A stretch of 64,000 nucleotides of DNA, from the NCBI RefSeq assembly GCF_006442545.2, contig NZ_CP083952.1, positions 2,039,501-2,103,500 on the forward strand. Reading direction: 5' to 3'. Positions 43,222 to 54,487 of this stretch are shown here, one piece after another. Both the position numbers and the translations under genes were made by a program. How positions within the stretch are numbered: the stretch's first letter is position 1; each line of letters opens with the position of its first letter. The stretch comes from Mesorhizobium sp. B2-1-8 (lineage in GTDB: Bacteria > Pseudomonadota > Alphaproteobacteria > Rhizobiales > Rhizobiaceae). The notes under the pieces are model-generated. The model was not told the origin of the DNA and made no database searches. It saw only the letters and a list, made by a program, of their open reading frames with translations.

Positions 43222-44127
43222 ATGGCTACCCCATCGACCGATGCACCTATTAGCCCGCTTCGCCAGCGCATGCAGCACGACATGCTGATGCGGGGCCTGG
43301 GCTCGCATACCCAGCAGGATTACGTTCGTCACGTCCGGCGCTTCGCCGCGTTCCTCGGCCGCTCGCCCGATGCGGCGTCGTCTGAGGACATCCGCCGCTT
43401 CCAGCTTCATCAGCATGAGAGTGGCGCCGGACCTGCGACGATCAACGGCGCGGTCTCGGCGTTGCGGTTCCTGTTCCTGGTGACGCTGAAGCGGCGGGAT
43501 CTGGCGCGTGCGCTGGTGGTCATGCGGTATCAGCGCAAGCTTCCCGACGTGCTGAGCGTGGAGGAAGCGGCGCGGCTGCTCGAAGCCGCACCTGGCATCA
43601 AGTACAAGGCCGCGCTCGGCGTCGCCTATGGCGCGGGCCTGCGCGTGTCCGAGGTCGCGCATCTCAAGGTCGACGATGTCGATAGCACGCGCATGCTGCT
43701 CCGCGTCGAGCAGGGCAAGGGCCGCAGGGACCGCAACGCGATGCTCTCGCCGCAGCTTCTGGAACTCCTGCGGCTGTGGTGGCGCGAAGGCAGGCGGCGC
43801 GGGGTGATGCTTCCGCATGGCTGGCTGTTCCCGGGCCGCAGTTGCACGGCGCCGATCTCGTCGCGGCAACTGCACCGCGCCGTCCAGGAGGCGGCCGAAG
43901 TCGCCGGCATCCGCAAGCGCGTCAGTCCGCACACTCTGCGTCACAGCTTCGCCACCCACTTACTCGAACAGGATGTCGACATCCGCGTCATCCAGGTGCT
44001 GCTCGGGCACAGCAAGCTCGATACGACCGCGCTCTACACCAAGGTCTCGACCCGGACGATCCATGCGGTCGCCGGGCCGCTCGATCGGTTGATGGCGCTG
44101 ATGGAAGGCAAGACGCCGCCCGGTTGA
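43222..44127 (+). CDS. Tyrosine recombinase of the IS91-type element
   Basis: XerC/XerD-like integrase, 301 residues. N-terminal SAM-like DNA-binding domain (about 10-100, TQQDYVRHVRRFAAFLGRSP). Catalytic domain with the conserved residues: Arg in YGAGLRVSEVAHL, HxxR in SPHTLRHSFATHLL, and His plus the Tyr nucleophile in LLGHSKLDTTALYTKV. All catalytic residues look intact. GAGAGG precedes the start. It is three bases from the transposase frame that follows and belongs to the same element, not to chromosome-dimer resolution. Confidence 0.92.
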   Translation: MATPSTDAPISPLRQRMQHDMLMRGLGSHTQQDYVRHVRRFAAFLGRSPDAASSEDIRRFQLHQHESGAGPATINGAVSALRFLFLVTLKRRDLARALVVMRYQRKLPDVLSVEEAARLLEAAPGIKYKAALGVAYGAGLRVSEVAHLKVDDVDSTRMLLRVEQGKGRRDRNAMLSPQLLELLRLWWREGRRRGVMLPHGWLFPGRSCTAPISSRQLHRAVQEAAEVAGIRKRVSPHTLRHSFATHLLEQDVDIRVIQVLLGHSKLDTTALYTKVSTRTIHAVAGPLDRLMALMEGKTPPG

Positions 44128-44164
44128 GCCGTGCGCACCTCGATCGAGGTCGCCGACATCTTCC

Positions 44165-45325
44165 GTGCTGCTGGGCCACCCCTACCGGGCCGCCCATGCA
44201 GGTCATCTGAGCCTTGGCCAGATCAAGGTCATGTCGGCGATCGAGCACTGCCGCACCGCGGCCCTTGGCGGTCACGTCGAGGCCTGCGAGGACTGCGGCC
44301 AATGGCGGATCGCCTACAACTCCTGCCGCAACCGGCACTGTCCGAAGTGCCAAGGCGCAGCGGCGCGGACATGGTTGGCCGAGCGCCAGGCCGACCTGCT
44401 GCCGGTCGGCTACTTCCATGTCGTGTTCACGCTGCCCGCCGAGGTCGCCGACATCGCCTTCCACAACAAGGCGCTCGCCTACGACCTGCTGTTCAAGGCA
44501 GCGTCGGAGACGATGCTGACCATCGCGGCCGATGCGAAGCACCTTGGAGCCAGGATCGGCATCACCGCCGTGCTCCACACCTGGGGCTCTGCGATGACTC
44601 ACCATCCGCACGTGCACATGATCGTACCGGGGGGCGGCATCGCGCCCGGCGGGAAGCGCTGGGTCTCGTCGCGGCCGGCCTTCCTGCTTCCGGTGCGCGT
44701 GCTCGGCAAGCTGTTCCGCCGGCTCTTCCTCACCCGGTTGATGGCGCTGCACGACGCCGGACGGCTCAGCTTCTTCGGATCAATGGCGTACCTCACCGGG
44801 CGGCGAGCCTTCCTGCGGCACCTGTCGCCAGTCCGGAAGAAGCGCTGGGTGGTCTATGCCAAGGCACCGTTCGCGGGACCGGAGGCGGTGCTCGCATACC
44901 TGTCGCGCTATACTCACCGGGTCGCGATATCGAACAGCCGCCTGATCGCCTTCGACGAGAGCGGCGTCACCTTCCGCTACAAGAACTACCGCCGCGACGG
45001 CGCCGACCGCCAGCAGGTCATGACGCTCGCCACAGACGAGTTCATCCGCCGCTTCCTGCTCCACGTGTTGCCGCGAGGCTTTCACCGCATCCGCCACTAC
45101 GGCCTGCTCGCCGGCTCCGCCCGCAAGGCCAGCCTCGCGCTCGCCCGCGAACTGCTGAGCGTCGCTGCGCCACCCGATGACGACACACCAGGCGAACCGG
45201 AGGACTTCCGCCCGTCATGCCCGTGCTGCGGCGGACGCATGATCGTCGTCGAGGTACTCGAACGCTGGAGGCAGCCACGCGGACCGCCGGACGCTACCGC
45301 GACGAACCGGGAGACCGCTCTATGA
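44165..45325 (+). CDS. IS91-family transposase (N-terminus frameshifted)
   Basis: Rolling-circle transposase of the Y2 type, about 386 residues in this frame. It has the N-terminal zinc-binding part (CEDCGQWRIAYNSCRNRHCPKCQ) and the HUH motif region (THHPHVHMIVPGGG). The C-terminal half has YLSRYTHRVAISNSRL (catalytic Tyr region) and FRYKNYRRDG. The expected start is the GTG at 44131, reading VRTSIEVADIFRAAGPP, but the frame then shifts at a run of four C (44179-44182), and the rest continues in the next frame as YRAAHAGHLSLGQ. One extra C accounts for this. Either the gene is broken, it uses frameshifting, or the base is a sequencing error. Confidence 0.88.
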   Translation: MLLGHPYRAAHAGHLSLGQIKVMSAIEHCRTAALGGHVEACEDCGQWRIAYNSCRNRHCPKCQGAAARTWLAERQADLLPVGYFHVVFTLPAEVADIAFHNKALAYDLLFKAASETMLTIAADAKHLGARIGITAVLHTWGSAMTHHPHVHMIVPGGGIAPGGKRWVSSRPAFLLPVRVLGKLFRRLFLTRLMALHDAGRLSFFGSMAYLTGRRAFLRHLSPVRKKRWVVYAKAPFAGPEAVLAYLSRYTHRVAISNSRLIAFDESGVTFRYKNYRRDGADRQQVMTLATDEFIRRFLLHVLPRGFHRIRHYGLLAGSARKASLALARELLSVAAPPDDDTPGEPEDFRPSCPCCGGRMIVVEVLERWRQPRGPPDATATNRETAL

Positions 45326-45796: not shown

Positions 45797-46834
45797 CTAA
45801 ATATTCTCCCGCGTGTAGATCTCGAACGGCAAGATGGCGGTCAAATTGCCACCATCGTTCGGGGCGGCAACGGCGCGGACCATACCGGTCAGCGCTTCGA
45901 GCGCGATTCGGGCGAGCGGGTGCGAGATGATGAAGGTCAGCGTGCCGTCAAGCAGCGCCGGGCGGGTCGACTCCATCAACTCATAGCCGACGACGACGAT
46001 GCTGCCGGCGCGGCCGGTGGAGCGCAGGGCCGCGATAGTGCCGGTGATGCCACCACCGGCGACATAGAGGCCGGACAGATCCGGATTTTCGTTCAGTAGC
46101 TTCTCGGTCATCTCCTGTGCGATGGCGCTCGATTCGAAGGTCAGCAGCGGCTCCAGCAGCGTGAAATCAGGGGCGTGCTCGCGGAAATAGGAGCGGAAGC
46201 CGCTCTCGTTCATTTCCTGGCAGCGATAGCGGTGATTGCCGACAAGGATGCCGAGCTTGCCGGGCGCCCTGCAGACATGCTCGAACACCCAGGCTGCGGT
46301 GCGGCCGACCTTCCAGCCGTCCAGCCCGACGTAATGAACCTGACCCGTCGCCGATATCTGCGAGATCAGCGCAAACACCGGAACGTTGCGGGCCTGCAGC
46401 GCATCGACCGCCTGGGTGACAAGCGGATGGACGGCGGCGACGACGCCGACGGCGTCGCATTCGGCGCCGAGCGCCAGCAGGCGCGCTCCGACATTCTGCG
46501 GCGACAGGTCGTCGAGAAACTCTATTCGCAGCTCTATCTCGCAGTCGGGCATGGTCGGCGCCACCGCTCGCAGCGCCTCGGCGATGTTGCGGTAGAAGGC
46601 GCGGCCGGGCTGGTGCAGCAGGAAGCCAAAGCGGTAGTGCGGCCGGGCGGCCGCTATGCGGCTGCGCAGCGCGCCCATGCCGTAGAAGCCGATCTGCTCC
46701 GCCGCCAGCCTGACGCGCTCGCGCGTGCCTTGGCGGACGGCGCCGATGCCGCTCAGCACCCGGTTGACGGTGGCCACCGAAACATTCGCCTCGGCGGCCA
46801 CATCCCTGATCGTCGGCCGCTTGTTCTGATCCAT
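45797..46834 (-). CDS. LacI-family transcription regulator
   Basis: 345 residues. N-terminal LacI helix-turn-helix (TIRDVAAEANVSVATVNRVLSG) with the hinge region after it, then a periplasmic-binding-protein-like ligand domain (about 65-335, with FGFLLHQPGRAFYRNIAEAL and LYVAGGGITGTIAALR). Most like regulators that sense sugars or polyols. It is divergent from the hydroxylase/ABC-transporter cluster and the shared region holds repeats suited to its binding, so it is the likely local regulator. Confidence 0.9.
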   Translation of the reverse strand: MDQNKRPTIRDVAAEANVSVATVNRVLSGIGAVRQGTRERVRLAAEQIGFYGMGALRSRIAAARPHYRFGFLLHQPGRAFYRNIAEALRAVAPTMPDCEIELRIEFLDDLSPQNVGARLLALGAECDAVGVVAAVHPLVTQAVDALQARNVPVFALISQISATGQVHYVGLDGWKVGRTAAWVFEHVCRAPGKLGILVGNHRYRCQEMNESGFRSYFREHAPDFTLLEPLLTFESSAIAQEMTEKLLNENPDLSGLYVAGGGITGTIAALRSTGRAGSIVVVGYELMESTRPALLDGTLTFIISHPLARIALEALTGMVRAVAAPNDGGNLTAILPFEIYTRENI

Positions 46835-46856
46835 TTCGTCTCATCCGCCTGTAGTA

Positions 46857-46951
46857 ATTGATATGAAGATATCATCTATCGTGCCAGATTGATATGAATG
46901 ACACAATCAGTTTGGAACAAAAATTCTATTCTTGATTCATTTTGGATCAAG
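46857..46951. promoter_or_regulatory. Candidate LacI-type operators in the divergent promoter region
   Basis: An 11-base direct repeat ATTGATATGAA occurs at 46857-46867 and 46888-46898, 31 bases apart (three helical turns). A separate palindrome CTTGAT (46931-46936) / ATCAAG (46946-46951) with a 9-base centre lies nearer the rightward genes. These lie between the two divergent starts. Confidence 0.5.
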
Positions 46952-47118
46952 ATGTTTATCTCGTCAAAAGCAAGCAAGGCGGACGCACCGCCAGCCTAGG
47001 GATAGCAGCAGCACAGCGCATACGGGTTTTGCCCATCGCTCTCAGGCGGTGTGAGGCAGCGCGCGCGTGCGGCCCATCCCAAGGCCTTGCAGGTGCGGCA
47101 TTGCGGGTGGAGGATTGC

Positions 47119-48138
47119 ATGGACGATCTCGAATACGGCGTGCGCGACAAGCGCGGCGACTGGAAGCCGAACGGACGCATCGAGGGAGCGCCGTTGTGGA
47201 ACTGGCCGCCCGGGCTGCCGAAGATCCTGGCGTGGCTGCCCGGCTATATCTGGCCGTGGAATGCTTTCCACATGGCCACGGCGCTGCTCTACTGGTTCTA
47301 TATCGTCCCGAGCGTCGAGACGATGAAGACGATCAGCTGGGGCTGGGCGCTGTGGCTCTACGCCGTCAACGCGGCAGCGATCCTCGTCTTCTACGGCATC
47401 TTCGAGCTGCGCTACTACATCAAGCGAACCCAGGCGACGCGGTTCAAGTACAACCACAAATTCCCTGCCGACGCGCCCTCCGACGTGTTCTGGTTCCAGA
47501 GCCAGAACCTCGACAACTTCCTGCGCTCGTTCTTCATCACCATTCCGCTATGGACGGTGGTCGAAGTCGTCTTCCTGTGGTGCTTTGCCAATGGCTACGT
47601 GCCGTGGGTTGGCTGGCAAGATCACCCGGTCTACCTCGCCGCACTTGTGCTGGTCGCACCGGCCATCCACGAGGTGCATTTCTTCTTCATCCACCGCCTG
47701 ATCCACTGGGCCCCGCTCTATCGCTGGATCCATTCGGTCCACCACAACTCGATCAACCCGTCGCCGTGGTCATCGCTGTCGATGCATCCGGTGGAGGGGT
47801 TCCTCTATCACGCGGTCGCCTTCTGGCATCTGGTCATCCCGTCCAATCCCATTGTCGCGCTGTTCCAGCTGCATATCGCCGGCTTCGGTGCGGTCAACGG
47901 CCATCTCGGCTTCGATAAGCTGGAGGTAACCGAGGACACAGCGGTCGAGAGCCACGCTTACGCACACTACCTGCATCACAAATATTTCGAGGTGAACTAC
48001 GGCGGTGACGGGCTGATCCCGCTCGATCGATGGTTCGGCACTTGGCACGACGGCACCAAGCAAGGCGACGCCATGATGGACGCCCGCTTCCAGAAAAAGA
48101 AGGAACGTATGAACGCCAAGGTCGCGGCGAACCATTGA
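47119..48138 (+). CDS. Membrane di-iron hydroxylase (sterol desaturase / fatty acid hydroxylase family)
   Basis: Integral membrane oxygenase, 339 residues with about four to five helices. The eight-histidine di-iron ligand set is visible in three groups: HEVHFFFIHRLIH, WIHSVHHNS and SHAYAHYLHHK. These enzymes use O2 and electrons from a ferredoxin or cytochrome to hydroxylate or desaturate a substrate at the membrane surface. The start at 47119 follows GGTGGAGG; the frame extends upstream without a ribosome site. It begins a cluster with a sugar-type importer and a Rieske ferredoxin that could be its electron donor. The substrate is not deducible; a lipid role is the family default but context points elsewhere. 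Confidence 0.85.
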   Translation: MDDLEYGVRDKRGDWKPNGRIEGAPLWNWPPGLPKILAWLPGYIWPWNAFHMATALLYWFYIVPSVETMKTISWGWALWLYAVNAAAILVFYGIFELRYYIKRTQATRFKYNHKFPADAPSDVFWFQSQNLDNFLRSFFITIPLWTVVEVVFLWCFANGYVPWVGWQDHPVYLAALVLVAPAIHEVHFFFIHRLIHWAPLYRWIHSVHHNSINPSPWSSLSMHPVEGFLYHAVAFWHLVIPSNPIVALFQLHIAGFGAVNGHLGFDKLEVTEDTAVESHAYAHYLHHKYFEVNYGGDGLIPLDRWFGTWHDGTKQGDAMMDARFQKKKERMNAKVAANH

Positions 48139-48233
48139 TCAAGCGACGCAACGCGCAACGGGAGAGGTGCGCGCCTGCGGATGAATTCGATTTTTTCTAA
48201 ACCGTCTGACGACGGCAACCGGGAGGAAATGAA

Positions 48234-49214
48234 ATGAAAACGATCACGAAACTGTTGACGGCGATCATGCTTGCGGGCGTGGCGGCGATATCGTCCACGG
48301 CTGCCATGGCCGATGGCGCGAAGATATTCGTCATCGGCGGTAAGGCGGACGACCCGTTCTGGTCGAAGGTCAAGAAAGGCGCCGACGACGCCGGCAAGGT
48401 CGCCGAACTGACCGGCGGCTCGGTGACCTGGCTCGGTCCGCAGAACTACGACAATCTCGGTCCGGACGCGGCCAAGCTGATCCGCACCGCGCTCAGCCAG
48501 AAGCCGAGCGCCATTGTCGGCCCTGACTGGGTGCCGGAGGCCATGGACGATGCTTTCAAGGAAGTCGTTGCGGCAGGCGTGCCGCTCATCATCTACAATT
48601 CCGGCGGCATGGACGCGGCCAAGCGGCTCGGTGCCATGAACTATGTCGGCAATGAAGAATACGCCGCTGGCCTGGGCGGCGGCACCTATTACGGCAGCCA
48701 TGGTTCCAAGAACGTGCTGTGCGTAAACACTTTGCCGGGCGCCACCAACACCGAAGACCGCTGCAAGGGCATTGCCGACGCCATCGCCAAGAGCGGCGGC
48801 AAATCGAGCCAGTTGCCGCTGCCGTCGTCGAGCTTCGGCAACCCGACAGCAGTCGCAGAGGCGATCAAGGCCGCCGTGCTGAAGGACAACACCATCGACG
48901 GTGTCATCACCATCAGCGCCGGCGACGCCAACAGTGCCGCCAACGCCATCAGCCAGGCCAATGCCGGCGAAAAGGTCAAGCTGGCTTCGTTCGACATGGA
49001 TGAGACCGGCCTGCAGCGCATCAAGGCTGGCACGCAGATGTTCGCTGTCGACCAGCAGCCTTATCTGCAGGGCTTTCTCGCGGTGTCGCTGCTGAACGGC
49101 TTCGTCAACTATGGGCTCGACCTGCCGACCAAGCCGGTGCTGACCGGGCCGGGGATCGTGGACGCCGCCAATGTCGATGCGACGATGGCTGGTGCCGCGG
49201 CCGGCGCTCGCTAG
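48234..49214 (+). CDS. Sugar-type ABC transporter substrate-binding protein
   Basis: Periplasmic binding protein of the ribose/galactose class, 326 residues. Sec signal peptide MKTITKLLTAIMLAGVAAISSTAAMA. The mature part has the class pattern IFVIGGKADDPFWSKVKKGADDAGK and, later, ASFDMDETGLQRIKAGTQMFAVDQQPYLQGFLAV. First of three importer genes; GGGAGGAAA precedes the start. A stem-loop follows the stop, as is common behind abundant binding proteins. The ligand is probably a sugar, polyol or cyclitol. Confidence 0.9.
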   Translation: MKTITKLLTAIMLAGVAAISSTAAMADGAKIFVIGGKADDPFWSKVKKGADDAGKVAELTGGSVTWLGPQNYDNLGPDAAKLIRTALSQKPSAIVGPDWVPEAMDDAFKEVVAAGVPLIIYNSGGMDAAKRLGAMNYVGNEEYAAGLGGGTYYGSHGSKNVLCVNTLPGATNTEDRCKGIADAIAKSGGKSSQLPLPSSSFGNPTAVAEAIKAAVLKDNTIDGVITISAGDANSAANAISQANAGEKVKLASFDMDETGLQRIKAGTQMFAVDQQPYLQGFLAVSLLNGFVNYGLDLPTKPVLTGPGIVDAANVDATMAGAAAGAR

Positions 49215-49228
49215 CGTCTGCAGACAGA

Positions 49229-49256
49229 ATGTCCGGCCCATCCGCGGGCCGGACAT
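49229..49256 (+). repeat. Intergenic stem-loop behind the binding-protein gene
   Basis: A perfect 11-bp stem ATGTCCGGCCC (49229-49239) / GGGCCGGACAT (49246-49256) with a 6-base loop and no T tract. It probably protects the upstream mRNA or reduces read-through into the permease gene, giving more binding protein than permease. Confidence 0.65.
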
Positions 49257-49322
49257 CATCTGCCACGCGCCGCCGACTACTGGCAGCGCCAGGCTCCCAT
49301 TGTTCAAGCCAGGGACATTTCG

Positions 49323-50384
49323 ATGACATCCCAAGCCCATGACCAACTCGCCGTGGTAGCGACTGCGCCCCCGCAATCTTCGATGCCCTCGATCGGCAGT
49401 CTCATGCGCCGCCCCGAGGTCGGTTCGCTGATCGGCATGGTCGCCGTTCTGGTCTTCTTCTCGATCTTCGGCGGCGCCAATTTCATGTCGGCCGGAGGCG
49501 CCGCGAGCTGGCTCAACGTCGCCTCGGAACTCGGCATCATCGCGCTTCCCATCGGGTTGCTGATGATCGCCGGGCACCTCGATCTCTCCGTCGGCTCGAT
49601 GGTCCCCGCCAGTTCGATGACCATTGCCATCCTGTCGGGCCACTACGACCTGCCGATCATCGTCGGCATCCTCGCCGCGCTTGGCCTTGGGCTCGCCGTC
49701 GGCTTCATCAACGGCGTGCTGGTGATCCGCACCAAAGTGCCGTCCTTCGTCGTTACGCTCGCCACGCTGTTCGCATTGGCTGGCCTGACGCTCGGCCTCT
49801 CGGTCATCCTGTCCGGCAGCACCAGCGTCGCGCTTAAGAGTGGCACCACCGCCAAGCTGCTGTTCGGCGACTATCTCGGCGGCAAGTTCGAGGTGACGCT
49901 GTTCTGGTGGATCGCCGCCGTTTTGATCGTCGGCTTCATCCTGAACTTCTCGCGCTTCGGCAACTGGATCCTGGCCATGGGCGGCGACGCCGTCAGCGCC
50001 CGCAATGCCGGCATCCCGACCGACCGGGTGACCATCGCGCTGTTCATGAGCAGCGGCCTGTGCGCCTCCTTTGTCGGCATGTCACAGGCGATCCTCTACA
50101 ACAGTGCCCAGGTGGCCGCCGGCCAGTCCTTCATCTTCAACTCGATCATCGCGGTGGTCATCGGCGGCGTGCTGCTGACAGGCGGCTACGGATCGGTGGT
50201 CGGCATCGTTTTGGGCACACTGACCTTCGCCATCGTTAATCAGGGCATCTTCTACACCGGCTTCGACGCCAACTGGGCAAGCCTGATCATCGGCGTCCTG
50301 CTGCTGGCGGCCGTGCTGATGAACAACACTTTCCGTACCATGGCGTTGACCTACGCGCCGCGCACCAAACCGAGGGCACGCTGA
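49323..50384 (+). CDS. Sugar-type ABC transporter permease
   Basis: Inner-membrane permease of the RbsC/FrcC class, 353 residues and about nine to ten helices. Typical stretches: GLLMIAGHLDLSVGSMVPASSM, GFINGVLVIRTKVPSFVVTLATL and GGDAVSARNAGIPTDRV (coupling region). The stop overlaps the start of the ATPase gene (TGATG). Confidence 0.92.
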   Translation: MTSQAHDQLAVVATAPPQSSMPSIGSLMRRPEVGSLIGMVAVLVFFSIFGGANFMSAGGAASWLNVASELGIIALPIGLLMIAGHLDLSVGSMVPASSMTIAILSGHYDLPIIVGILAALGLGLAVGFINGVLVIRTKVPSFVVTLATLFALAGLTLGLSVILSGSTSVALKSGTTAKLLFGDYLGGKFEVTLFWWIAAVLIVGFILNFSRFGNWILAMGGDAVSARNAGIPTDRVTIALFMSSGLCASFVGMSQAILYNSAQVAAGQSFIFNSIIAVVIGGVLLTGGYGSVVGIVLGTLTFAIVNQGIFYTGFDANWASLIIGVLLLAAVLMNNTFRTMALTYAPRTKPRAR

Positions 50385-51208
50385 TGACCACGCCCCTGCT
50401 CAGGCTGACTGGGATCAACAAGTCGTTCGGCCCGATCGACGTGCTCCATGACATTTCGCTCGAGGTCAACAGAGGCGAGGTGCTGTGCCTGCTTGGCGAC
50501 AATGGCGCCGGCAAGTCGACGCTGATCAAGATCCTCTCCGGTGTGCACAAGCCCACGTCGGGCACGATGGAGATGGACGGCAAATCCGTGGCCTTCGACA
50601 GCCCCCGCGACGCCAGTGACCATGGTATCGCCACCGTTCACCAGTTCGGCGGGACATTCCCGCTGATGAGCATCGGCCGCTCCTTCTTCGTCGGCGCCGA
50701 GCCGACGCGGCGCTGGGGGCCGCTGACCATCTACGACCGCAAACGGGCCAACGAGATCGCCGTCACCGAGATGCGCCAGCTCGGCATCACCCGCATCGAC
50801 GACGGCGACCGCCTCGTCGGCGGACTGTCCGGTGGCGAACGCCAGGCGCTGGCGATCGCGCGCGCCGTCCATTTCGGCGCCAGCGTGCTGATCCTCGACG
50901 AACCGACCGCCGCGCTTGGCGTGAAGGAGGCGGCGCACGTGCTGCGCATTGTGCTCCAGGCGCGCCGCAAGGGCATCGCGGTGATCTTCATCACCCACAA
51001 TGTCGTCCATGCCCTGACCGTCGGCGACCACTTCGCCGTCCTCATCAGAGGCGCCAAGGCCGCCGACTTCCGCAAGGGCGAGAAAAGCCGCGAGGCGATC
51101 ACCGACCTGATGGCGGGCGGCGAGCAGATGGCCGAGCTCGAAGCCGAGATCGAGAGTTTCTCGGCGGCTGACAACGGGCATGCGCCGCAGGGCGCGAGCC
51201 ATGCGTGA
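50384..51208 (+). CDS. Sugar-type ABC transporter ATPase (single domain)
   Basis: 274 residues with one complete nucleotide-binding domain: Walker A GDNGAGKS, signature LSGGERQ, Walker B LILDEPT, switch ITHNVVHA. Most importers of the ribose class use a double-domain ATPase; the single-domain version is like FrcA of rhizobia and would act as a homodimer. A strong terminator lies 44 bases downstream, before the ferredoxin gene. Confidence 0.92.
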   Translation: MTTPLLRLTGINKSFGPIDVLHDISLEVNRGEVLCLLGDNGAGKSTLIKILSGVHKPTSGTMEMDGKSVAFDSPRDASDHGIATVHQFGGTFPLMSIGRSFFVGAEPTRRWGPLTIYDRKRANEIAVTEMRQLGITRIDDGDRLVGGLSGGERQALAIARAVHFGASVLILDEPTAALGVKEAAHVLRIVLQARRKGIAVIFITHNVVHALTVGDHFAVLIRGAKAADFRKGEKSREAITDLMAGGEQMAELEAEIESFSAADNGHAPQGASHA

Positions 51209-51251
51209 GCAGTGAAGACGCCCATCTCCTCCTCCCGGGCATCTCCCTGTA

Positions 51252-51288
51252 CGGCCGGCGGAATGCGTGGTCCGCCGGCCGCCTTTTT
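51252..51288 (+). terminator. Rho-independent terminator or attenuator inside the cluster
   Basis: A perfect 11-bp GC-rich stem, CGGCCGGCGGA (51252-51262) and TCCGCCGGCCG (51271-51281), with an 8-base loop, is followed by CCTTTTT. It separates the importer genes from the three enzyme genes by position, so either the latter have their own promoter or depend on read-through. Confidence 0.85.
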
Positions 51289-51320
51289 CAACCGACCAAA
51301 GAACAGACGGCAGAGTGACA

Positions 51321-51632
51321 ATGGCAAAATGGATTGATGCATGCGCGACCGATGACATCGATGAAGAGGACGTCATCCGCTTCGATCACGAGGCCCGGAC
51401 ATTCGCCATCTACCGCAGCCCCGACGATGCATTCTTCTGCACCGACGGGCTGTGCACGCATGAGAAGGTGCATCTCAGCGACGGGCTGGTTATGGAGCAC
51501 AGGATCGAATGCCCGAAGCACAGCGGCGTGTTCGATTACCGGACCGGCGAAGCGCTACGCGCACCGGTCTGCGTGAACCTGAAAACCTACGCCACGAAGG
51601 TCGAGGACGGCCGCGTGTACATCGAGGTCTGA
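51321..51632 (+). CDS. Rieske-type ferredoxin, MocE-like
   Basis: A 103-residue soluble Rieske [2Fe-2S] protein. Both ligand pairs are visible: CTHEKVHLSDG (Cys-X-His) and CPKHSGVFD (Cys-X2-His). It resembles the MocE-type ferredoxins of rhizopine catabolism, which feed electrons to an oxygenase. The ATG at 51321 was chosen; the open frame upstream runs through the terminator. It lies one base before the next gene. Its likely partner is the membrane hydroxylase at 47119; no ferredoxin reductase gene is in the cluster. Confidence 0.88.
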   Translation: MAKWIDACATDDIDEEDVIRFDHEARTFAIYRSPDDAFFCTDGLCTHEKVHLSDGLVMEHRIECPKHSGVFDYRTGEALRAPVCVNLKTYATKVEDGRVYIEV

Positions 51633-51633
51633 C

Positions 51634-52416
51634 ATGTCCGATACTTTTACACTGGCGGCTTGTGTCGAAATGCTGTGGCGCGACAAGCCGATGGAATGGC
51701 GCGTGCGGCGCCTCACCGAAATGGGTTTTCAGGTCGGCCTCTGGAACTGGCCCGAGCACGATCTCGCAATGCTGGAAAGATCCGGCGCGACTTTCTCGAT
51801 CATGAACGGTTATTTGCGCGGCCGGCTGGCCGATGACGAAGGTGCTGCCGAACTGTTGAAGACGGCGAAGGAGACCGCGGCGGTCGGCAAACGCCTCGGC
51901 GTCGCGCGGCTCAATCTGCACGGCACCGGGCTGGGTGATGGCGGTCTGCCAGTCACGCCGTGCGAGATCGTCACCGGCGCCATGTGGCTCAAGGCGCGCG
52001 ACACGCTGAACCGCATTGCCGACCTTGCCGAGACGGAAGGCGTGACCTTCACGCTGGAGAATCTGAACCTGCCGGTCGACCATCCCGGCGTGCCGTGCGG
52101 GCGCGCTGAGGACACACTGGCGCTGGTCTCGAGCGTCAACCGTTCGGGGCTCCGCCTCAATCTCGACCTCTATCACGCGCAGATCGGCGAAGGGAACCTG
52201 ATCGAGCTGTGCCGCGCCTGCCTACCTTGGATCGGCGAGGTCCAGGTGGCCGATGTGCCCGGACGCATGGAGCCTGGCACCGGCGAGATCAATTACCGGG
52301 GTATCGCCCGTGCGCTGAAGGACATGGGCTATCGCGGACCGGTGGGCATGGAGGCATTCGCCTCCGGCAATCCCGAGGCGGCGCTGCAAGCCTTCCGCGA
52401 AGCTTTCACGATCTGA
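51634..52416 (+). CDS. Hydroxypyruvate isomerase-like TIM-barrel protein
   Basis: Sugar phosphate isomerase/epimerase family (xylose isomerase-like TIM barrel), 260 residues. The metal-site residues sit where the Hyi group has them: Glu in FTLENLN (about 150), Asp and His in LNLDLYHAQ, Glu/Asp-containing QVADVPGRMEPGTGEINY, and the last Glu in GMEAF near 245. It probably isomerises an aldose/ketose or hydroxy-keto acid intermediate. The exact reaction is unknown. It is tightly coupled to the ferredoxin gene and 9 bases before the PanB-like gene. Confidence 0.85.
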   Translation: MSDTFTLAACVEMLWRDKPMEWRVRRLTEMGFQVGLWNWPEHDLAMLERSGATFSIMNGYLRGRLADDEGAAELLKTAKETAAVGKRLGVARLNLHGTGLGDGGLPVTPCEIVTGAMWLKARDTLNRIADLAETEGVTFTLENLNLPVDHPGVPCGRAEDTLALVSSVNRSGLRLNLDLYHAQIGEGNLIELCRACLPWIGEVQVADVPGRMEPGTGEINYRGIARALKDMGYRGPVGMEAFASGNPEAALQAFREAFTI

Positions 52417-52425
52417 GGGAACAAA

Positions 52426-53238
52426 ATGGTCACCAAGAGCACCCGGCCCACCGTCGCCGACATCCGCGCCATGAAGGGCCGCGGACAAAAGATTTCCATG
52501 CTGTATGTCACCTCGCTCGACGAGGCGGCAGCGGCGGATGCGGCCGGCGTCGACATGCTTTCGATCGAGGGCCGATTCTTCTCGCCCGAGATGCGCGAGG
52601 CGGCGGGCCGCTGCTTCGTACAGGTCGGGCTGCCTTACGGGCCATCCGGCAATCTGGTCACGGCGGAGGACTATCTGAAAACCGCCTACCACTTCATGCG
52701 CATCGGCGGCGACTGCTTCTACTGTGCCGCCTCGCTCGATATCCAGAAGACGCTCTGCGACAACGCCGTGCCTGTCGTTGCCCATGTTGGCCTGATCCCC
52801 TCGCAATGCACTTGGACCGGCGGTTTCAAGGCTGTCGGCAGGACGGCCGACAGCGCGCGTGCGGTGTGGGACCACGTCAAGCGGCTGGAAGCCATCGGCT
52901 GCTTCGGCGCCGAACTGGAAGTGGTGCCAGACCGCGTTGCCGAACTGATTACCAGGAGCACACCGATGATCATGCTGGGCATGGGCGCCGGGCCGCATGC
53001 CGACGCGCAGTATCTGTTCAGCGAGGACGTACTCGGCCACACATCAGGCCACAAGCCGCGCCATGCAAAGACCTACCGCAACTTCGCCGCCGAGTATGAG
53101 CGGCTGCAGCACGAGCGCATCGCCGCCTATCGCGAATTCATCGCCGACGTCCAGACCGGCGCCTATCCCGAGCCACAGCACGTGGTTCAGATCACTGATG
53201 ACGAGTTCTCCACCTTCAGGACCGCTCTCAGGCTTTAG
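52426..53238 (+). CDS. PanB-like (ketopantoate hydroxymethyltransferase family) protein with atypical active site
   Basis: 270 residues with overall PanB architecture: KISMLYVTSLDEAAAADAAGVD, VVAHVGLIPS, GGFKAVGRT, FGAELEVVPDRVAE (catalytic Glu kept) and MLGMGAGPHADAQYLFSEDVLG. However, the positions that bind magnesium in PanB look different: the GDS motif reads EGR, the DxPF motif reads GLPYG, and the LEGG motif reads CAAS. It is therefore probably not the pantothenate enzyme but a PEP mutase/PanB superfamily member acting as a lyase or transferase in this pathway. Last gene of the cluster. Confidence 0.8.
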   Translation: MVTKSTRPTVADIRAMKGRGQKISMLYVTSLDEAAAADAAGVDMLSIEGRFFSPEMREAAGRCFVQVGLPYGPSGNLVTAEDYLKTAYHFMRIGGDCFYCAASLDIQKTLCDNAVPVVAHVGLIPSQCTWTGGFKAVGRTADSARAVWDHVKRLEAIGCFGAELEVVPDRVAELITRSTPMIMLGMGAGPHADAQYLFSEDVLGHTSGHKPRHAKTYRNFAAEYERLQHERIAAYREFIADVQTGAYPEPQHVVQITDDEFSTFRTALRL

Positions 53239-53770: not shown

Positions 53771-54487
53771 TCAACTGTCGATATAGCTGCATTCGAAACC
53801 CGCATATTCCGTCATGCCTCGTAGGTCGAGCACGCGAACACGGCCTTGCCGGAATTCGAGAAATTTACGCTCACGCAGTTCGCGCAGCATCCTGTTGACA
53901 TGAATCGGAGTGAGGCCAAGGGCGTCCGCGAGATCGTACTGGGTCAACGGGCATTCATAGCTATCGCGGGTAACGGAGCCTATGAGTTCCAGGCGCGTTC
54001 TCAATTCGAGGAACAGATGTGCGGTCCGCGCCAAGGCACTGCGTCGACCAACATTGGTGAGATGTTCAGCGATGACGGCACCGTTGTGCCCAAGAGCCTC
54101 GACGATCAGGGAGAAAAGATGGGGGGATTTCATGGCTGTGAGCGTAAATGTCTTGGTTGAGGCTACCAAGACGTTCAGGTCGGTTTGAGCAACAAACGTT
54201 TCAAGCGCGCCACCCCCGTTCGACCGGGACATGACGAGATCGCCTCTCAGGGCAAAATCCAGGATCTGTCGCTGCCCCCCTGCAAGTTCGTGCGACAGGC
54301 AACCCCACCCCGACTCGACGATGAATACGCGGTCATTGTCCTCACCCTGGCTGAAAATGACCGTCCCAGGTGGATAACGCTTCGGTGTGAACCCCAGCGT
54401 CTTCATGAGCGCCGAATCTTCGTCGGCAAGCCTGATATACGATGACCGCTTTTCGTTCCCGCCCAAAGACTGTGAAGCGTACAACAT
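53771..54487 (-). CDS. Crp/Fnr-family transcription regulator
   Basis: 238 residues. An N-terminal cyclic-nucleotide-binding-type barrel (about 25-140, with YPPGTVIFSQGEDNDRVFIVESGWG) and a dimer helix lead to a C-terminal Crp winged helix (LTQYDLADALGLTPIHVNRMLRELRERKFLEF). No cysteine cluster for iron-sulphur binding is visible at the N-terminus, so it is not an oxygen-sensing Fnr. This subgroup is common in rhizobia, often in many copies. Single gene; target unknown. Confidence 0.88.
   Translation of the reverse strand: MLYASQSLGGNEKRSSYIRLADEDSALMKTLGFTPKRYPPGTVIFSQGEDNDRVFIVESGWGCLSHELAGGQRQILDFALRGDLVMSRSNGGGALETFVAQTDLNVLVASTKTFTLTAMKSPHLFSLIVEALGHNGAVIAEHLTNVGRRSALARTAHLFLELRTRLELIGSVTRDSYECPLTQYDLADALGLTPIHVNRMLRELRERKFLEFRQGRVRVLDLRGMTEYAGFECSYIDS

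Follow-up and report, generated by a model that had tools for sequence, protein, structure and literature searches.

A conserved operon of Mesorhizobium sp. B2-1-8 proposed to demethylate O-methylated inositols, and its PanB-like protein

In rhizopine catabolism, demethylation is carried out by MocD, an oxygenase of the FA_desaturase type, together with MocE. The mocDEF genes, which accompany mocABRC in Sinorhizobium meliloti L5-30, are reported to take part in rhizopine catabolism (PMC10107442). We analysed a 64,000-nucleotide stretch of Mesorhizobium sp. B2-1-8, a bacterium of soil and nodules (contig NZ_CP083952.1), referred to as the window, in whose coordinates all positions are given, and found at 45797..53238 a set of eight genes in the order listed below, a divergent lacI gene and seven plus-strand genes. 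This set resembles the rhizopine system in ATP-binding cassette (ABC) uptake, as predicted, of a cyclitol derivative, in a ferredoxin of the MocE family, in a membrane di-iron oxygenase and in its link to inositol. It differs in that the oxygenase belongs to PF04116 and not to FA_desaturase, the regulator is of the LacI and not the MocR type, and a Hyi-like and a PanB-like protein are added. An FA_desaturase oxygenase, a score above cut-off for the rhizopine binding protein model NF052284 and a MocR regulator, all of which mark the rhizopine moc genes, were absent from this cluster; the FA_desaturase proteins that B2-1-8 carries beside MocE-like ferredoxins are encoded in two other clusters (L009 and L011; L and G numbers denote loci and genomes). 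As judged from gene content and from linkage in relatives, the operon probably serves the uptake of an O-methylated inositol (pinitol, ononitol or a related compound) and its oxidative demethylation. It would represent a variant of rhizopine-type demethylation that is apparently undescribed; no description of this gene set was present among the literature matches listed, which comprise titles and abstract beginnings of open-licence papers.

Other described systems share parts of this scheme. In the purU-mabO-folD operon of nicotine catabolism on plasmid pAO1, the one-carbon (C1) unit from demethylation enters methylene-tetrahydrofolate and is processed by FolD and PurU, much as proposed here, but the oxidase acts on methylaminobutyrate, and the available part of the source names neither a membrane oxygenase nor a PanB-like protein (PMC3891541). 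Dioxygenases of the PhyH type are reported to O-demethylate 2'-O-methyl nucleosides with release of formaldehyde (PMC12709175). They share oxidative O-demethylation, and PhyH genes adjoin some PanB-like genes, but these are 2-oxoglutarate enzymes with nucleoside substrates. Ketopantoate hydroxymethyltransferase (PanB) has in common with the PanB-like protein of the window the family PF02548 and residues His136 and Glu181, whereas the window protein has Asp84, Lys112 and Glu114 replaced and falls in a separate clade. The inositol (iol) pathway is represented by IolG, IolC, IolD and IolB in the cluster of one relative (G117); that pathway is not known to include a demethylation step.

Gene content and conservation of the operon

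A preliminary description of the window had given this gene set together with its place and order, all of which were confirmed; the proteins match the Pfam families LacI, FA_hydroxylase, Peripla_BP_4, BPD_transp_2, ABC_tran, Rieske, AP_endonuc_2 and Pantoate_transf. The features are as follows.

45797..46834, minus strand: LacI-family regulator, divergent (PF00356 and PF13407)
46858..46875, no strand assigned: possible operator TTGATATGAAGATATCAT; it begins 24 bases upstream of lacI
47119..48138, plus strand: membrane di-iron FA_hydroxylase, proposed O-demethylase oxygenase (PF04116, 66 bits against a cut-off of 31)
48234..49214, plus strand: periplasmic substrate-binding protein (PF13407)
49323..50384, plus strand: ABC permease of the sugar type (PF02653)
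50384..51208, plus strand: ABC ATPase (PF00005)
51321..51632, plus strand: MocE-family Rieske ferredoxin (TIGR02377, 181 bits against a cut-off of 136)
51634..52416, plus strand: Hyi-like TIM-barrel protein, proposed inosose isomerase (PF01261)
52426..53238, plus strand: PanB-like protein, proposed C1 (formaldehyde) capture enzyme (PF02548, 135 bits against a cut-off of 28.7, from profile position 75)

The start of the hydroxylase was set by homologues at ATG 47119, giving a protein of 339 amino acids, and the histidines of its HxxxH, HxxHH and second HxxHH motifs were invariant in 16/16 aligned sequences; a comparison with the PDB gave no match up to E = 1. For the binding protein, the best NCBIfam model was the rhizopine binding protein NF052284 (175 bits, under the cut-off of 420; next best model, 23 bits), and the best PDB match was 4RU1, which we take to hold myo-inositol. 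For the ferredoxin, ATG 51321 is the most likely start. Its gene is separated by one base from that of the Hyi-like protein, which failed the hydroxypyruvate isomerase model TIGR03234 (109 bits, cut-off 353) and is followed after nine bases by the PanB-like gene.

Relatives of the hydroxylase were then sought in species-representative genomes, and the best 80 of 118 were kept. Partner genes were counted within about 9.5 kb of the hydroxylase (blastp, E <= 1e-20), both in all 80 loci, which include short contigs, and in a well-flanked subset of 60 loci whose flanks extend at least 2 kb upstream and 7.5 kb downstream, as many contigs end early. The binding protein was detected in 75 of the 80 loci (58 of the 60 well-flanked loci), LacI in 73 (55), the permease in 72 (57), the ATPase in 70 (58), the ferredoxin in 65 (54), the PanB-like protein in 58 (52) and the Hyi-like protein in 55 (48). 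The same gene order recurs in loci of Mesorhizobium, Rhizobium, Shinella, Ensifer, Labrys and Rhodobacteraceae, indicating that the grouping is more than chance; a Comamonadaceae bin (L075) carries the set in rearranged order. Co-occurrence in relatives, which the preliminary description had named among the checks to make, was borne out by these linkage counts, and the eight genes are a conserved operon.

We also surveyed 151 genomes of the family to which the window belongs, its own included, with thresholds of E <= 1e-80 for the hydroxylase and E <= 1e-40 for the PanB-like protein. The hydroxylase was present in 14/151 genomes and the PanB-like protein in 34/151; the latter was found in 13/14 genomes with the hydroxylase versus 21/137 without it (Fisher p = 5.6e-9, kinship not corrected for). 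Near some of the other hydroxylases of the family stand LacI, a MocE-like ferredoxin, a reductase or a binding protein; beside the hydroxylase of L229, LacI is the only partner.

Several of these counts weigh against an operon acting as one demethylation system. Of the 60 well-flanked loci, 18 lack one or more of the seven partners. Only four of the 13 family genomes with both genes (G000, G425, G796 and G839) have the hydroxylase and the PanB-like gene within 10 kb, and several of the remaining genomes carry them on separate contigs. The more distant hydroxylases of L230 and L231 stand without any of the partners. This last observation, together with the fact that PF04116 enzymes of known function act mostly on lipids, would be met by a hydroxylase that acts on a lipid or hydrocarbon and has the sugar genes as chance neighbours. 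Such a role is highly improbable in view of the well-flanked loci, where the binding protein (58/60), the ferredoxin (54/60) and the PanB-like protein (52/60) accompany the enzyme; a lipid-modifying hydroxylase is disfavoured by these linkage counts, which cover the partner genes and not lipid families, and the neighbours that stay constant are sugar-type and C1 genes.

Inositol and one-carbon genes and the proposed pathway

A relative of inositol 2-dehydrogenase (IolG) lies directly 3' of 33/59 PanB-like genes in these loci, on the same strand. The IolG of L035 passes its model (434 bits, cut-off 355), and those of L076 and L135 are also above this cut-off. On one contig of G117 (L238 with L135), the whole set, running from hydroxylase and importer to ferredoxin and PanB-like gene, is followed by IolG (422 bits), a PurU-like protein, IolC, IolD and IolB, the four Iol proteins all scoring above their cut-offs. 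This contig carries two relatives of the hydroxylase (67 and 54 percent) around a LacI, with binding proteins, permeases and an ATPase, and also an IolG-like and an isomerase-like gene, a ferredoxin, Hyi-like and PanB-like proteins and a Gfo/Idh protein. Elsewhere, iol relatives comprise IolD (L075 and L079) and IolB (L075), and L091 carries a fragment of IolC. From the linkage of IolG, IolC, IolD and IolB in relatives, we infer that the product of the operon enters inositol catabolism.

In the B2-1-8 genome itself, IolG is above cut-off at two other places. One IolG lies at 660 kb, with IolD at 650 kb and a nearby cluster of FA_desaturase and MocE spanning 667 to 670 kb. Three MocE-family ferredoxins of this genome are above cut-off, all beside a membrane di-iron oxygenase, and for one of them the distances to IolG and IolD are 7 kb and 17 kb. 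At another place (L010, 8808-9830; G000:C1 near 2505825), an IolG relative was noted beside a Hyi-like paralogue and an ABC importer; its model match contains one internal TAG, and the gene thus looks broken.

One-carbon genes were also found beside the operon in relatives. L035 carries in a row a ferredoxin reductase, PurU (332 bits, cut-off 286) and FolD (480 bits, cut-off 396), and PurU recurs in the differently built clusters L135, L191 and L235. The cluster of L076 includes a glutathione-dependent formaldehyde dehydrogenase (627 bits, cut-off 544) and an S-formylglutathione hydrolase (435 bits, cut-off 282).

In the pathway proposed here, the substrate, the direction and every reaction step, above all that of the PanB-like protein, are interpretations of computed gene content, conservation, linkage to iol and C1 genes and residue losses. 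The ABC system would bring in a methyl-inositol, and the membrane di-iron hydroxylase would hydroxylate its methyl ether, with electrons supplied through the MocE-type ferredoxin and an unlinked ferredoxin reductase. The resulting hemiacetal would fall spontaneously to free inositol and formaldehyde. Inositol would be oxidised by an inositol dehydrogenase, encoded beside the operon in relatives and elsewhere in the B2-1-8 genome, and the Hyi-like protein would move the product to the right inosose for the iol pathway. The formaldehyde-level carbon would be captured by the PanB-like protein, most likely on tetrahydrofolate, and then oxidised to formate by FolD with PurU or an equivalent. The pairing of inositol dehydrogenase and isomerase resembles the D-chiro-inositol route; this pairing would fit pinitol, and IolG alone would fit ononitol.

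This scheme retains most of the working model of the preliminary description. Import of a methylated polyol is supported by the IolG, IolC, IolD and IolB genes in relatives, and gene context also agrees with a rhizopine-like oxidative demethylation in which a sterol-desaturase-type oxygenase replaces MocD, as well as with a one-carbon role of the PanB-like protein, given PurU, FolD and formaldehyde dehydrogenase in relatives. Cleavage by the PanB-like protein, the other role then considered, was not supported.

Some observations on these accessory genes run counter to the scheme. PurU relatives occur near the hydroxylase in only 11/80 loci and FolD relatives in 6/80, and the eight genes of the window include no IolG, PurU, FolD or reductase. 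No PurU above cut-off was found in the B2-1-8 genome. The same genome has two glutathione-dependent formaldehyde dehydrogenases above cut-off, so the PanB-like protein is not the sole formaldehyde route there.

The same demethylation may act on another substrate, such as an N-methyl or O-methyl sugar, an inosamine (rhizopine-like) or other methylated solute. PanB-like genes do pair with oxygenases where no iol gene is recognised, as at L137, and the binding protein is nearest to the rhizopine model, a likeness that we also counted for import of a methyl-inositol. The dehydrogenase, IolC, IolD and IolB linked to this hydroxylase clade are, however, inositol enzymes, and no aminotransferase or MocR-type regulator is found among the eight window genes, which makes another substrate unlikely. 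Methylated inositols are plant products; pinitol and ononitol are reported to accumulate in nodules of Lotus japonicus, and pinitol to keep osmotic balance in legume nodules (PMC8730688). A rhizopine biosensor tried with myo-inositol, ononitol and pinitol is described as activated by rhizopines (PMC6668481). A bacterial route that consumes methyl-inositols would tie rhizobial nutrition to host osmoprotection.

The PanB-like clade

Relatives of PanB were sorted by the VGDS motif of true PanB, and the loss of VGDS in the PanB-like rows is thus by definition. Residues were numbered as in E. coli from a pairwise match to 1m3u, with position 45 placed by motif, and 103 distinct PanB-like rows were compared with 15 true-PanB rows, in which one place is counted twice. 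All 15 true-PanB rows keep Asp45, Asp84, Lys112, Glu114, His136 and Glu181. Among the 103 PanB-like rows, His136 and Glu181 are kept in every one, Asp84 in one, and Lys112 and Glu114 in none; Asp is found at position 45, which lies in the sorting motif, in 2/103. The residues Asp45, Asp84, Lys112 and Glu114 are presumably those that bind the metal and the keto acid in PanB. In a midpoint-rooted FastTree tree, the 103 PanB-like rows formed one clade with support of 0.94, and this clade possibly has a new enzyme function. The window protein also failed the panB equivalog model TIGR00222 (93 bits, cut-off 207.55). A separate true PanB followed by a PanC-like gene is present in the B2-1-8 genome; a duplicate PanB for vitamin synthesis was ruled out, as the true enzyme is present and the window copy is without the metal positions.

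A further PanB-related group (L125-L128 and L130-L133) of about 286-314 residues keeps VGDS and Lys112, carries Cys or Ser in place of Asp84 and Gln in place of Glu114, and by eye lies in some cases beside genes like those for binding proteins of tripartite ATP-independent periplasmic (TRAP) transporters.

The neighbourhood of PanB relatives was examined at 60 loci of best-scoring matches, among which 40 PanB-like loci correspond to 36 places (four repeats). Within 1.5 kb, an oxygenase (FA_desaturase, FA_hydroxylase, PhyH or Rieske), a MocE-like ferredoxin or the reductase of such a ferredoxin was found at 25/36 PanB-like places versus 0/12 places of true PanB (Fisher p = 1.9e-5, kinship not corrected for), while PanC was within 1.5 kb at 9/12 true-PanB places. 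For a third PanB-related group (VGDS and QGG motifs), a weak partner match was seen in 1/8. Pfam analysis of ten neighbours of PanB-like genes identified PhyH in five, FA_desaturase in four and a Rieske ring-hydroxylating oxygenase in one. At L108, L109 and L112, PanB-like genes adjoin oxygenases with no recognised inositol gene near. The shared factor appears to be oxidative demethylation and not inositol, and the oxygenase linkage together with the residue losses suggests that the PanB-like protein is a C1-capturing enzyme. The 11/36 PanB-like places without an oxygenase or carrier within 1.5 kb tell against this assignment; five of them belong to one subgroup (L113, L114, L115, L117 and L120), and the others include L105 (at a contig end), L166 (a fragment) and L150 (with IolG instead).

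Other chemistry was considered for this protein, either as a metal-independent aldolase condensing formaldehyde with a metabolite or as a carbon-carbon lyase of the sugar skeleton, in place of a folate enzyme. Membership in the PanB family agrees with such activities, the missing metal and keto-acid residues do not point to any one reaction, and most loci are without PurU and FolD. PurU nevertheless recurs in separate arrangements, oxygenases adjoin PanB-like genes where no inositol gene is recognised (L108, L109 and L112), and L076, the sole locus with formaldehyde dehydrogenase and hydrolase, shows no PanB-like gene in the 16 kb examined. On balance an aldolase or lyase is rather doubtful, if not quite as unlikely as another substrate. 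Cleavage of the carbon skeleton in particular is disfavoured, both by these oxygenase neighbours and by the missing keto-acid and metal positions.

Returning to C1 capture, we tentatively extend it to the whole clade, as an idea that falls somewhat short of probable: an enzyme that captures one-carbon units wherever demethylation is oxidative, descended from PanB without the keto-acid half. It may transfer formaldehyde to tetrahydrofolate, perhaps taking it directly from the oxygenase, and would work with four oxygenase families that are unrelated to one another (FA_hydroxylase, FA_desaturase, PhyH and Rieske) across Alphaproteobacteria, small AT-rich genomes included. If formaldehyde capture is true, it would give a function to a large set of proteins now named 3-methyl-2-oxobutanoate hydroxymethyltransferase in databases, and would supply an enzyme between demethylation and folate metabolism.

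PanB-like genes were also noted in other settings. A second B2-1-8 cluster (L011, G000:C1:2958000-2975000) has an importer, an FA_desaturase, a MocE-type ferredoxin and a PanB-like protein (52 percent identical). In small AT-rich genomes of about 1.4 Mb (L136, L137 and L204), an FA_desaturase relative adjoins the PanB-like gene. At L137 this gene lies beside carnitine-dehydrogenase-like and butyrobetaine-dioxygenase-like genes, both below cut-offs, and at L136 beside a distant glycine betaine monooxygenase relative, also below cut-off; these three clusters may carry out N-demethylation. A genome of 1.6 Mb (G161, L139-L141) has five PanB-like matches, including a tandem pair next to two PhyH genes.

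Regulator and adjoining genes

Near the start of lacI, a palindrome with up to three mismatches to TTGATACnnnnGTATCAA was found in 19/72 gaps between lacI and the hydroxylase gene, versus 12/1440 shuffled gaps and 13/1440 with permuted palindromes, the pattern having been chosen from the very gaps in which it was counted. By genus, the 19 matches comprise 16 from Mesorhizobium (the window included), two from Rhizobium and one from Tabrizicola. At 43222-45325, a phage-type integrase-like open reading frame and a transposase-like one adjoin the cluster and, read from their sequences alone, resemble an IS91-type element. On the 3' side, a Crp/Fnr-like regulator reading frame was recognised by eye at 53771-54487 on the minus strand.

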